DNA from: Acidimicrobiaceae bacterium
Lineage (GTDB): Bacteria; Actinomycetota; Acidimicrobiia; Acidimicrobiales; RAAP-2
Direction: 5' to 3'
NCBI GenBank assembly: GCA_003132305.1
Contig: PKXJ01000032.1
Location: 185,358-249,357 of the forward strand
DNA: 64,000 nt
The translations under genes and the position numbers were made by a program. Positions 26,531 through 31,294 of the stretch are shown piece after piece; positions within the stretch are counted from its first letter, which is position 1, and each line of letters starts with the position of its first letter. Below the pieces are notes generated by a model, which was not told the origin of the DNA, made no database searches, and saw nothing but the letters and a program-made list of their open reading frames with translations.

Positions 26531-27456
26531 GTCGCGCGACGCGCGTCCTCGTCACGGGCGCGGCCGGTCAAGTCGGTGTTGATCTTCAGGACACCCTTCG
26601 AGGCGTGACGCCGCTTGGGGGTGACGCGTCCTTTCAACCTGATGGAAGGCCCGTCGGAGAACACGAGTTTGAAGTGTTGGGACTCAACCGACGCGACCTC
26701 GACGTCACTGATCGTGACGCGGTTCTTCGTTCATTGCACGCCGCGCGTCCCGACGTGGTCGTCCACCTGGCGGCCTACACGGCCGTCGACCGAGCGGAAG
26801 AGGACGTCGAGAACTGCTTTAACGTCAACGAGCAAGGTACGGCGTTGATGTCCCTCGGCGCGAGTGAGATCGGCGCCCATCTCATCACCATCTCCACCGA
26901 CTACGTGTTTGACGGCACCAAGGGTGCCGCGTACCTCGAATTCGACGAACCACGACCACTGAGCGTCTACGGCGCTTCGAAACGTGAGGGGGAACGCCAC
27001 TGCACCCCCGGGGACACGATCGTTCGCACGTCGTGGGTTATGGGCGTGCGGGGTAATAACGTCGTGCACGTGATTGCTGAGCGCGCCGCGTCGGGCGCCA
27101 ACGTTCGCTTCGTGGACGATCAGATGGGCACCGTGACGGCCGCGAGCGATCTGGCGAGGTCTCTCGTGAGCTTGGTGCGTGCGCGACCCGGTGGCGTCTG
27201 GCACGTGGCGAACAGCGGAGCCACGACCTGGTTCGACGTGGCGGCCCACGTGGGTGATCTGCTCAATCGTGGCGAAGAGTTCGCGACGCCCATTTCGACT
27301 AGTGAACTGTCGCCGCCGCCACTGGCGACGCGGCCCGCGAGGAGCGATCTCGACACCAATAAGTTCACGTCGAGCTTCGGTGAACTGCCCCCGTGGCGAG
27401 ACGCGGTCGCGAGGCTGGTCTTCGATCGACCCCGACGTGGAGAGGTCCCCTCGTGA
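26527..27456 (+). CDS. rmlD: dTDP-4-dehydrorhamnose reductase-like
   Basis: TRVLVTGAAGQVGVDLQ, VVHLAAYTAVDRAEED, ISTDYVFDGTKG, YGASKREGE. Confidence 0.9.
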   Translation: MSRATRVLVTGAAGQVGVDLQDTLRGVTPLGGDASFQPDGRPVGEHEFEVLGLNRRDLDVTDRDAVLRSLHAARPDVVVHLAAYTAVDRAEEDVENCFNVNEQGTALMSLGASEIGAHLITISTDYVFDGTKGAAYLEFDEPRPLSVYGASKREGERHCTPGDTIVRTSWVMGVRGNNVVHVIAERAASGANVRFVDDQMGTVTAASDLARSLVSLVRARPGGVWHVANSGATTWFDVAAHVGDLLNRGEEFATPISTSELSPPPLATRPARSDLDTNKFTSSFGELPPWRDAVARLVFDRPRRGEVPS

Positions 27457-28292
27457 TCGACGTGGCCAACGACGTGGTCGCGGTGATCGTGGACTACCAC
27501 GCTGACCAGGTGTTGGTGGAATGCGTGGACTCACTCTTTGACAACGACGTCGAAGCGATTGTCGTCGTAGAAAATGGAGAGGTGGGCTCGGTGCCCACGT
27601 CGTTGCTCGAGCCGGGAATTGTGCTCGTGTCACCGGGAGTGAATCTCGGTTACGGGCGTGGTGTCAATCGAGGCGTTGCCGCCGCGCGCCGGTCCAAGTA
27701 CGTGCTCGTCTCCAATCCCGACGTCGTGGTGCACGAGGGGGGCGTGCGGGCCCTCGCGGAGTACCTCGAGAGTCACCGCGAGGTCGCGCTCGTTGGCCCC
27801 TTGATACTTCGACCCGACGGCACGGTCTACCCCTCGAAACGAGTGTTCCCCAACGTCTGGCTCGCGGGTCTGCACGCGATACTGGCGCCGCTGTGGCCGA
27901 CGAATCCCGCGACGAAGCGGTACCGCTCAACGAGAAGTGACGGCACCGTGGACTGGGTGTCGGGTGCCTGTTTTCTCGTTCGCCGTGCGGCTTTTGAAAA
28001 GGTGGGCGGATTTGACGAGCGCTACTTCATGTTCGCCGAAGATATGGCGCTCTGCTGGCAGTTACGAGAGCACGGCTATCAGGTGGCCGCGACGAGCGAC
28101 GCGGTGGTCACCCACATTGAAGGCGTGTCGCGCTCGAGGGTGTCGCGCGAAATGCTGATCGCGCACCACCAAAGTGCCCTTCGCTTCGAGATGCAGACCG
28201 CTCGGGGATGGCGCCGCGCGCTCGTGCCCGTGGCGAGCCTGGTCCTTAGCCTGCGCCTCGTTCTCGTGCTCCTCGCGCGCCCTAAGACCTAA
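27453..28292 (+). CDS. GT2-family glycosyltransferase (WbbL/rhamnosyltransferase-like)
   Basis: GVNLGYGRGVNRGVAAARRSKYVLVSNPDVVVHEGGV; VSGACFLVRRAAFEKVGGFDERYFMFAEDMALCWQLREHGY. Confidence 0.88.
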   Translation: MIDVANDVVAVIVDYHADQVLVECVDSLFDNDVEAIVVVENGEVGSVPTSLLEPGIVLVSPGVNLGYGRGVNRGVAAARRSKYVLVSNPDVVVHEGGVRALAEYLESHREVALVGPLILRPDGTVYPSKRVFPNVWLAGLHAILAPLWPTNPATKRYRSTRSDGTVDWVSGACFLVRRAAFEKVGGFDERYFMFAEDMALCWQLREHGYQVAATSDAVVTHIEGVSRSRVSREMLIAHHQSALRFEMQTARGWRRALVPVASLVLSLRLVLVLLARPKT

Positions 28293-28305
28293 GGGTCCCA
28301 TCGCG

Positions 28306-28311
28306 TAGAAT
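28306..28311 (+). promoter_or_regulatory. Putative -10 element (TAGAAT) upstream of structured RNA
   Basis: TAGAAT at 28306-28311, 7 nt before the first G of the long-range stem at 28319; weak -35-like AAGACC with about 16-nt spacing. Confidence 0.4.
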
Positions 28312-28318
28312 ATCTCGT

Positions 28319-28567
28319 GGGCTACGAGTGGTCTGTGGTTGAAAGTCGATGCCAGTCGCGGGCGAAACGACCCACGTAAGGCGTCTTGTTGACGCTGAGC
28401 ATGGCGCGGTTTAGAAGTAAGTCCTGCCCCGGGGCGATCATCGTGATCGTCGAGGGAGCCGGTGAAGTGTGCGAGAACACACTGGGAGAGCGCAAGCTGC
28501 CCAGGGTACGCACGGACACCGCCGCAGGCAGGTGTGGGGTCAAAGACCAGGTCAGCACTCGTAGCCC
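28319..28567 (+). ncRNA. Candidate structured RNA (about 249 nt) upstream of secA
   Basis: Perfect 12-bp closing stem GGGCTACGAGTG (28319-28330) / CACTCGTAGCCC (28556-28567); internal hairpins GCGTC-TTGTT-GACGC (28381-28395), CGATCA-TCG-TGATCG (28435-28449), AGTGTG-CGAGAA-CACACT (28466-28483), AGC-GCAA-GCT within CTGGG/CCCAG (28482-28504), GGTC-AAA-GACC (28538-28548). No convincing ORF on either strand. Confidence 0.72.
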
Positions 28568-28606
28568 TCTTGATGTCCCCGTTCGACCGGTAGGGTGAAG
28601 CACGAT

Positions 28607-31294
28607 ATGAGCGTATTACAGAAGATTTTGAAGGCCGGCGAGGGCAAGCGAGTTCGCCAACTCGCGGAGTTAGTCCCGCCAATTAACGAGCTCGCCGGCG
28701 AGATGGCGGCCCTAACGGACGCCGAACTGCGCGCAAAGACCGACGTCTTTCGTGAGCGTCTCATCGAAGGCGAAACCCTCGACGACCTGTTGATCGAGGC
28801 CTTTGCCGTGGTCCGAGAGGCCGCGACGCGCGTGCTCGGTCAGCGCCACTACGACGTGCAACTCATGGGCGGGATGGCGTTGCACTTTGGCTGGATCGCT
28901 GAAATGAAGACCGGTGAGGGAAAGACCCTCGTGTCGACGTTGCCGGTCTACTTGAACGCGCTCGCCGGTAACGGTGTCCACGTCGTGACGGTGAACGACT
29001 ACCTCGCCACGCGCGACGCGAACTGGATGGGCGAACTCCACCGGTTCCTGGGCCTCACGGTCGGTCGCGTGGGACCGGACCTCCAAGAGTTCGACGAAAA
29101 GCGCGAGGCCTACGCCGCGGACGTGACCTACGGCACGAACACCGAGTTCGGCTTCGACTACCTTCGCGACAACATGGCCCGACGCGCCGAGCACATGGTC
29201 CAGCGCGGACACCGCTACGCCATTGTCGACGAGGTCGACTCGATTTTGATCGACGAGGCGCGAACGCCACTCATCATCTCGGGGCCGGCCTCTGACGTCA
29301 CCAAGCTCTACTACCAGTTCGCGTCCATCGCTCGCTCGCTCACCCGCGACACTGACTACGAGGTGGACGAGGAGAAGAAGACGGTCATGCCCACGGAAGC
29401 CGGTATTGAGAAGGTCGAGCGTCAACTCGGCGTGACCAACCTCTACGACGCGGTGGCGACGAACTACGTGCACCAACTCGGCCAGGCGCTGCGGGCCAAG
29501 GAACTCTTCCACCGCGACAAGGACTACCTGGTCGACGCCGGTGAGGTGAAGATCGTCGACGAGTTCACCGGGCGCACCCTCGAGGGTCGTCGCTGGAGCG
29601 ACGGTCTGCACCAGGCCGTCGAGGCCAAGGAGCGCGTGCGTATCCAAGAGGAGAATCACACGTGGGCGACGGTCACCCTGCAGAACTACTTCCGTCTCTA
29701 CGAGAAGCTCGCCGGCATGACGGGTACCGCCGAAACGGAAGCCGCGGAGTTTGGTAACACGTACAAGCTCTCGGTCGTGCCGATTCCCACCAATGAACCG
29801 GCGATTCGCGATGACAAGGCCGATCTCATCTACAAGACCGAGGCCGCGAAGTTCTCAGCCATCGTGGACGACGTGCGCGAGCGTTCCGACTTGGGACAAC
29901 CCATTCTGCTCGGTACCGCGTCGGTCGAGAAGTCCGAGCTGTTGAGCCGCGAACTCTCCAAGGCCGGCATCACGCACGAGGTCTTGAACGCGAAGCAACA
30001 CTTTCGCGAGGCCGAGATTGTCGCCCAAGCCGGACGCAAGGGCGCCGTCACGGTGGCGACGAACATGGCCGGTCGAGGCGTCGACGTGATTCTCGGAGGC
30101 AACTTCGAAGGACTCGCGGTGCGTGACGCCGCCGCTCAAGGCTTCGCGCCCGGAAGTGAGGAGTACGAGGCGGCCTATCAAAAGGCGTGCGCCAAGTGGA
30201 AGCCGGTCACGCAAAGCGACGGGGATCAGGTGCGGGCCCTCGGGGGACTGTACGTGCTCGGCACCGAGCGGCACGACTCGCGACGCATTGACAATCAGTT
30301 ACGGGGTCGTTCGGGGCGCCAGGGCGACCCCGGCGAAAGTCGCTTCTACCTCTCGCTCGAAGACGAACTCCTGCGAGTGTTCGCGACCGGCGCGGTGTCG
30401 TGGGTCATGGATCGCACCATGCCCGAGGACGAGGCGATTGAGGCAAAAATGGTGTCGAAGGCGATTGAGCGCGCGCAGAACACCGTCGAAGCGCGCAACG
30501 CCGAAATTCGTAAGGACGTCCTTAAGTACGACGAAGTCATGAACGAACAGCGCAAGGTCATCTACGGCCGTCGTCAGCAGGTTATCGACGGTGAGGATAT
30601 TCACGACGCGACCCTCGAGATGCTCGAAGAAAAGCTCACCGAAGCCATTGACGCTCAACTCGGCAACGGCTTCGTCGAAGAGTGGGATCTGAACGCCCTG
30701 GTCTTGGATCTTCAGTCGCTCTATCCGACCGAACAAACCGTCGAGTCGCTGCGCGCCTACAGCGACGTCGACGACGTCGTGGCCCTCGTCGTCGACGAAG
30801 CCGTTGGTCAGTACGAAAAGAAGTCGGAGAACTTTCCCGGAGGTCTCGACACCGCCAAGGAGATAGAGCGTGACGTCATGCTCCAAATTCTGGACCAGCG
30901 TTGGCGTGATCATCTCTCGGACATGGACTATCTGCGAGACGGTATCCACCTTCGCCAGGTCGCCCAACAAGACCCCTTGAACGCGTGGCAAAAAGAGGGG
31001 TACTTGATGTTCGAGCACCTGCTCGACGCCGTCGATGTTGACTACGTTCGCTACATCACCCACGTCGAGGCCGCGATCGAGCCGGCCGCGGCCGGTGACG
31101 AGGACGAGGGGCTCGAGGGCGCACTGACGAACGCCGACGCCGTGGCGCCCGGCGCGACCGAACTGCCCGCGCAGGAAGCCGCGCCCAAGGGCGCGCCCAA
31201 AGCTGGCGCCAAGCACACGGAAAAGATCGGTCGAAACGATCCCTGCTGGTGTGGCTCGAAACGCAAGTTCAAGCAGTGCCATGGCCGACCCTAA
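28607..31294 (+). CDS. secA: Preprotein translocase SecA
   Basis: MKTGEGKTLVSTLPVYLNAL; DEVDSILIDEARTPLIISG; GRGVDVILGG; C-terminal SEC-C GRNDPCWCGSKRKFKQCHG. Confidence 0.96.
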   Translation: MSVLQKILKAGEGKRVRQLAELVPPINELAGEMAALTDAELRAKTDVFRERLIEGETLDDLLIEAFAVVREAATRVLGQRHYDVQLMGGMALHFGWIAEMKTGEGKTLVSTLPVYLNALAGNGVHVVTVNDYLATRDANWMGELHRFLGLTVGRVGPDLQEFDEKREAYAADVTYGTNTEFGFDYLRDNMARRAEHMVQRGHRYAIVDEVDSILIDEARTPLIISGPASDVTKLYYQFASIARSLTRDTDYEVDEEKKTVMPTEAGIEKVERQLGVTNLYDAVATNYVHQLGQALRAKELFHRDKDYLVDAGEVKIVDEFTGRTLEGRRWSDGLHQAVEAKERVRIQEENHTWATVTLQNYFRLYEKLAGMTGTAETEAAEFGNTYKLSVVPIPTNEPAIRDDKADLIYKTEAAKFSAIVDDVRERSDLGQPILLGTASVEKSELLSRELSKAGITHEVLNAKQHFREAEIVAQAGRKGAVTVATNMAGRGVDVILGGNFEGLAVRDAAAQGFAPGSEEYEAAYQKACAKWKPVTQSDGDQVRALGGLYVLGTERHDSRRIDNQLRGRSGRQGDPGESRFYLSLEDELLRVFATGAVSWVMDRTMPEDEAIEAKMVSKAIERAQNTVEARNAEIRKDVLKYDEVMNEQRKVIYGRRQQVIDGEDIHDATLEMLEEKLTEAIDAQLGNGFVEEWDLNALVLDLQSLYPTEQTVESLRAYSDVDDVVALVVDEAVGQYEKKSENFPGGLDTAKEIERDVMLQILDQRWRDHLSDMDYLRDGIHLRQVAQQDPLNAWQKEGYLMFEHLLDAVDVDYVRYITHVEAAIEPAAAGDEDEGLEGALTNADAVAPGATELPAQEAAPKGAPKAGAKHTEKIGRNDPCWCGSKRKFKQCHGRP

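Follow-up and report, generated by a model that had tools for sequence, protein, structure and literature searches.

The window, i.e., the whole stretch of DNA that was analyzed (64,000 nt), contains on its plus strand a gene for a family-2 glycosyltransferase (GT2), a structured RNA of the raiA (ModT) family, and secA, in this order. The coordinates of the genes, the RNA helices, and the putative promoter boxes are listed in Table 1. Genomes of the genus carry, in order, accC (divergent), a birA-like gene, rmlD, GT2, the RNA, secA, and prfB, with insertions in a few of them, and the RNA is separated from the secA ATG by approximately 40 nt in most of the genus. The mechanical open reading frame of secA started at a GTG (28595) inside a promoter box, and the start was placed at the conserved ATG. 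The closest named relatives, as judged by SecA, were uncultured Acidimicrobiaceae metagenome bins, the best being isolate 'palsa_458' with 93% SecA identity.

Table 1. Coordinates and evidence for the features of the raiA RNA locus in the window
Feature	Position	Strand	Evidence or remark
GT2, 5' neighbor	27393..28292	+	Unrelated genes at this place in other genera
-10 box TAGAAT of the putative own promoter of the RNA	28306..28311	+	TANNNT type, no recognizable -35; direct reading and conservation
raiA (ModT) RNA, full length with extended P1	28319..28567	+	Rfam RF03072 match at 28322-28564
P1a, 5' strand	28319..28330	+	Pairs with 28556-28567; 11/12 pairs changed on both sides, 96.9% of cells paired
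P1b/P1c, 5' strand, CUGUGGUU	28333..28340	+	Pairs with 28545-28549 and 28553-28555; Rfam alignment; 100% paired, nearly invariant
7-nt strand AGUCGCG	28354..28360	+	Pairs with CGCGGUU 28405-28411; 99.4% of cells paired, 2 double-change pairs
P5 hairpin GGCGUC-UUGUU-GACGCU	28380..28396	+	5/6 pairs with double changes, 99.5% paired
P6, 5' strand, CCUGC	28423..28427	+	Pairs with GCAGG 28524-28528; 98.9% paired, 2 double-change pairs
P7/P8 variable region	28429..28523	+	Variants of 181-184 nt within the genus have one uninterrupted P6-P7 hairpin instead
P1a, 3' strand	28556..28567	+	Covariation as for the P1a 5' strand
-10 box TAGGGT of the putative own promoter of secA	28591..28596	+	10 nt before the ATG; TANNNT conserved
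secA	28607..31294	+	Pfam SecA domains; ATG 28607 conserved in relatives

Family membership and neighborhood of the RNA

The whole window was searched against Rfam 15 with cmscan. The raiA RNA model (RF03072) gave the sole match above the gathering score (152.3 bits vs 101.3), and the match covered model positions 1-209, complete and untruncated. RNase P, tmRNA, 6S, and the other Rfam families gave nothing above threshold in the whole window; the sole further match at E ≤ 10 was to a miRNA model on the minus strand and was dismissed as chance. One copy of the raiA RNA was found in the genome. With high confidence, 28319-28567 is a member of the raiA/ModT family. The preliminary description of this DNA had proposed a structured noncoding RNA some 249 nt long and had named the raiA class as one hypothesis; the full-length match and the covariation (see below) bear out both.

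The features that define raiA RNAs were also recovered among relatives. The single-stranded core was strongly conserved, with 74 alignment columns invariant in 72 sequences and many of these outside helices, and P1, P1b/c, P3/pk-1, P5, and P6 were conserved with covariation. Frequent neighbors of raiA RNAs are comFC and raiA/hpf, which adjoin 74% and 66% of the copies, respectively, as cited in PMC11706538; GT2 and secA stand in their place here. This is no bar to membership, as such neighbors are typical, non-essential, and not structurally defining, and C. difficile likewise has no raiA gene beside the RNA (PMC11706538).

Compared with the raiA/ModT RNAs of Clostridium (C. difficile and C. 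acetobutylicum), the RNA is alike in its full-length model match, its conserved P1, P3/pk-1, P5, and P6, its own promoter signature, and its position alone between neighbors. It differs in lying directly 5' of secA in a genome without HPF, and some relatives in the window's genus are wholly without P8. The arrangement comFC - raiA RNA - raiA/hpf is paralleled in an order-level relative (locus L037), where a Pribosyltran (ComFC-like) gene, the RNA, and hpf follow one another with secA further on, whereas the window's genus has neither a comFC-like gene nor hpf at the locus.

The gene 5' of the RNA varied among relatives (Pribosyltran [ComFC-like], phosphoglucose isomerase C-terminal domain, AdoHcyase, ATP-grasp, MFS, or GT2). 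Adjacent HPF genes were located by tblastn with trimmed HPF queries; where present, they lay 37-179 nt 3' of the RNA and in the same orientation, with secA coming next in most of the loci reaching it. As far as the sequences tell, the RNA and its predicted promoter stay while the neighbors change. No phage matches were found; the two 'plasmid' matches, located on replicons of 2.6 and 11.9 Mb, were weak and partial, covering 37-39% of the query, and gave no evidence for a mobile copy.

Fold, covariation, and variants without P8

The segments GGGCTACGAGTG (28319-28330) and CACTCGTAGCCC (28556-28567) are exact reverse complements, as had been reported for the perfect 12-bp long-range stem. When the 249 nt were shuffled 20,000 times, such a stem arose by chance in only 36 cases. 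The plus-strand fold had an energy of -115.6 kcal/mol (z -4.1 vs shuffles), and the minus-strand fold was nearly as far below its own shuffles (z -3.65), so folding energy alone identifies neither strand nor function and is no proof of an RNA. The RNA was established by the covariation and the Rfam match.

For covariation, RNAs from 72 related loci were aligned, and 43 pairs of the Rfam-derived structure were tested. Standard pairs made up 98.1% of the cells, and 22 of the 43 pairs were changed on both sides, including 11 of the 12 in P1a; this is strongly the opposite of the missing conservation and missing stem covariation that had been named beforehand as evidence against a structured RNA. 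Double-change cells numbered 284 in a count test with no phylogeny model; shuffling gave 71.6 on average, and sliding the partners gave no more than 32. In the slid control, which keeps relatedness, pairing collapsed to 32-46%.

The helix formed by the 7-nt strand (Table 1), nested in Rfam, is equated here with pk-1 of the cryo-EM models on the basis of its position and its length of 7 pairs; pk-1, pk-2, and non-canonical tertiary contacts have been described in the cryo-EM structures of raiA RNA (PMC11751092). A match between CCTGCC (28423-28428) and GGCAGG (28527-28532) had been suggested as a possible switch or pseudoknot. Both strings are present in the window, but the conserved P6 pairing of the relatives uses another register (Table 1), and the proposed switch or pseudoknot was rejected as the constitutive P6 read off-register. 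The window reads GCAGGCAGG by chance; the relatives have mostly GCAGGCGAG or GCAGGCAAG. Similarly, the GCAA loop pointed out earlier does occur in the window, but most other members of the genus differ in sequence there.

At loci L103, L106, L107, L111, L113, L114, and L115, alignment and folds revealed RNAs that measured 181-184 nt, lacked P8, and had P6 and P7 fused in one hairpin. By match length, P8-less short forms were present in approximately 16 genomes of the genus. Because variation of P5, P7, and P8 has been reported before for raiA RNA (PMC11706538), these variants are an incremental addition; they suggest a minimal construct for biochemistry.

Predicted promoters of the RNA and secA

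The TAGAAT box, described earlier as -10-like, sits 7 nt 5' of the stem, and its conservation strengthens that description: a TANNNT ending 4-10 nt (mostly 5-7) before the first base of P1 was found in 71 of the 79 non-redundant relatives, and in 0-5 relatives in each of six control windows of equal width. In M. tuberculosis, the main promoter form is TANNNT with no conserved -35, centered 7-12 bp before the start (PMC3898074). A sigma-70 consensus scan gave nothing, the E. coli-type two-hexamer pattern being the wrong model for TANNNT promoters. Judging from the TANNNT spacing, the +1 of the RNA would coincide with the first base of P1 or lie close to it, and the signatures predict that the RNA is an autonomous transcription unit.

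A second TANNNT box precedes secA. It was found 8-11 nt before the secA ATG at 52 of the 53 loci with the RNA beside secA, and within 7-12 nt of the ATG at 47 of the 48 loci with intervening genes or no RNA seen; Shine-Dalgarno-like sites were present at 2/53 and 4/48 of these loci, respectively. In high-GC bacteria, TAnnnT approximately 12 bp before the start codon marks leaderless genes (PMC3160421). A near-leaderless transcript of its own is probable for secA, whose predicted promoter would occupy the approximately 40 nt that follow the RNA. Across the class, secA had the TANNNT box at 99 of 101 loci and almost no Shine-Dalgarno sites, and has the look of a leaderless or almost leaderless gene.

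A scan of 28200-28700 detected no intrinsic terminator separating the RNA from secA, so read-through into secA or 3' processing of the RNA is likely. This differs from C. difficile ModT, for which an intrinsic terminator and two isoforms have been proposed (PMC11706538).

The missing terminator, the short distance to the secA ATG seen in most members of the genus, and the Rfam type of RF03072 ('Cis-reg; riboswitch') would fit control of secA by a cis-acting leader or riboswitch. Such a role is nevertheless quite unlikely, because secA keeps its start-proximal TANNNT box with or without the RNA and is mostly without a Shine-Dalgarno site, so that its main transcript would start 3' of the RNA. 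A cis-regulatory riboswitch lies in a 5' UTR with an expression platform, and no such platform or terminator-like site was visible in 28200-28700. Furthermore, hpf rather than secA comes next after the RNA in many relatives, and trans-complementation in clostridia ruled out a cis role there (PMC11706538). The preliminary description had left an independent RNA and a secA leader side by side; the TAGAAT signature favors the former, and the latter is disfavored by the box that secA has for itself.

In C. difficile, ModT is abundant and complements in trans (PMC11706538), and trans-complementation of the raiA RNA of C. acetobutylicum is cited in the same report. For the present RNA, we infer transcription, abundance, and action in trans, which others have demonstrated in clostridia only. 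It is very probable that the locus encodes a raiA/ModT RNA of approximately 249 nt that is independently transcribed from its own TANNNT promoter, has the conserved raiA core, and is trans-acting.

Occurrence without HPF and c-di-GMP enzymes

No raiA/HPF gene was found in this genome with PF02482, a model that gave matches in 11 of 14 control genomes. Of 247 genomes sampled from the class, 23 had the RNA and 134 had HPF. In the family (173 genomes), 154 genomes had the RNA and 31 had a PF02482 match: 124 carried the RNA only, 30 both, one HPF only, and 18 neither, with gene absences, here and below, resting on draft assemblies. Within the genus, the RNA was present in 95 of 100 genomes, and the five without it were 70-84% complete. 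None of the 95 RNA-bearing genomes had a credible HPF gene by PF02482 and the family HPF query. The sole PF02482 match in the genus (genome G318), also obtained by the family HPF query, was rejected, its contig being read as an assembly chimera.

As the RNA lies shortly upstream of HPF in the relatives having that gene and this genus is without it, the RNA might be taken for a decaying regulatory element of a lost hpf/raiA gene. That is extremely improbable: no decay was seen in the 52 sequences without adjacent HPF (98.6% standard pairs, 21 double-change pairs) or in the genus alone (98.9% and 17), and the RNA promoter signature is kept. The comparison indicates that selection on the fold continues without HPF.

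Deletion of ModT raises c-di-GMP in C. difficile (PMC11706538), and seven GGDEF matches were found in this genome; both would suit an RNA that acts mainly via c-di-GMP turnover. The c-di-GMP gene search covered GGDEF and EAL domains. By this search, 20 of the 100 genus genomes had no GGDEF match, and all 20 carried the RNA. EAL was also absent in 18 of the 20, leaving 18 RNA-bearing genomes without detectable GGDEF, EAL, and HPF; 12 of the 18 were at least 90% complete (G102, G383, G392, G395, G165, G399, G063, G400, G401, G130, G055, and G235). Apparently, c-di-GMP turnover was lost within one genus, other members of which have up to 18 GGDEF matches. The RNA carriers free of GGDEF and EAL speak against a conserved function in c-di-GMP turnover, although a lineage-specific link would be compatible with them, and a main action via c-di-GMP turnover is considered quite unlikely.

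raiA/ModT is a widely conserved bacterial RNA with solved structures, and neither PMC11751092 nor PMC11706538 gives a molecular activity for it. Its name and neighbors hint at ribosome hibernation, and the clostridial phenotype at c-di-GMP. What is added here is comparative: relatives have kept the RNA after the loss of HPF and, in some, of c-di-GMP enzymes. The best reading of these sequences is that the conserved role would not need HPF and probably not c-di-GMP. Given a whole genus in which the RNA persists in the absence of HPF, with GGDEF and EAL lost as well from some of its members, we consider it probable that raiA/ModT function is independent of the raiA/HPF protein and of c-di-GMP synthesis, with a dispensable P8 arm and a natural minimal RNA of approximately 181 nt.

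In the proposed mechanism, transcription would begin at or near the first P1 base from the RNA's own TANNNT promoter, and the RNA would fold into the conserved raiA core and act in trans. The compact core would most likely have a housekeeping role in growth-phase transition, exerted either by catalysis or through binding of a partner (protein, RNA, or ligand) that is itself widely conserved. Adjacency to HPF would then be functional clustering, and the c-di-GMP effect in C. difficile would be downstream or lineage-specific. If true, the two main clues that context offers to function would both be secondary, and the true partner would best be sought in these genomes. Carriers without either system narrow the search, as partners obtained from pulldown or phylogenetic profiling should occur there too.

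Neither raiA RNA nor HPF was found in the 8 genomes of genera g3 and g128, which belong to the same family; these are possible natural deletions for phylogenetic profiling. Low-scoring raiA matches in five genomes of the window's genus (G333, G335, G340, G354, and G334) may be contig ends or degenerate copies.

Two contigs, those of loci L077 (G318:C116) and L061 (G268:C130), were apparently chimeric exactly at the raiA RNA core, with flanks from different lineages. At L077, the 5' flank was 83% identical to the genus locus L068, the 3' flank resembled a distant family, and pairing of the two P1 strands failed. The raiA core, being very conserved, seems to act as a trap for assemblers, and a P1 that fails to pair can serve as a simple chimera detector.
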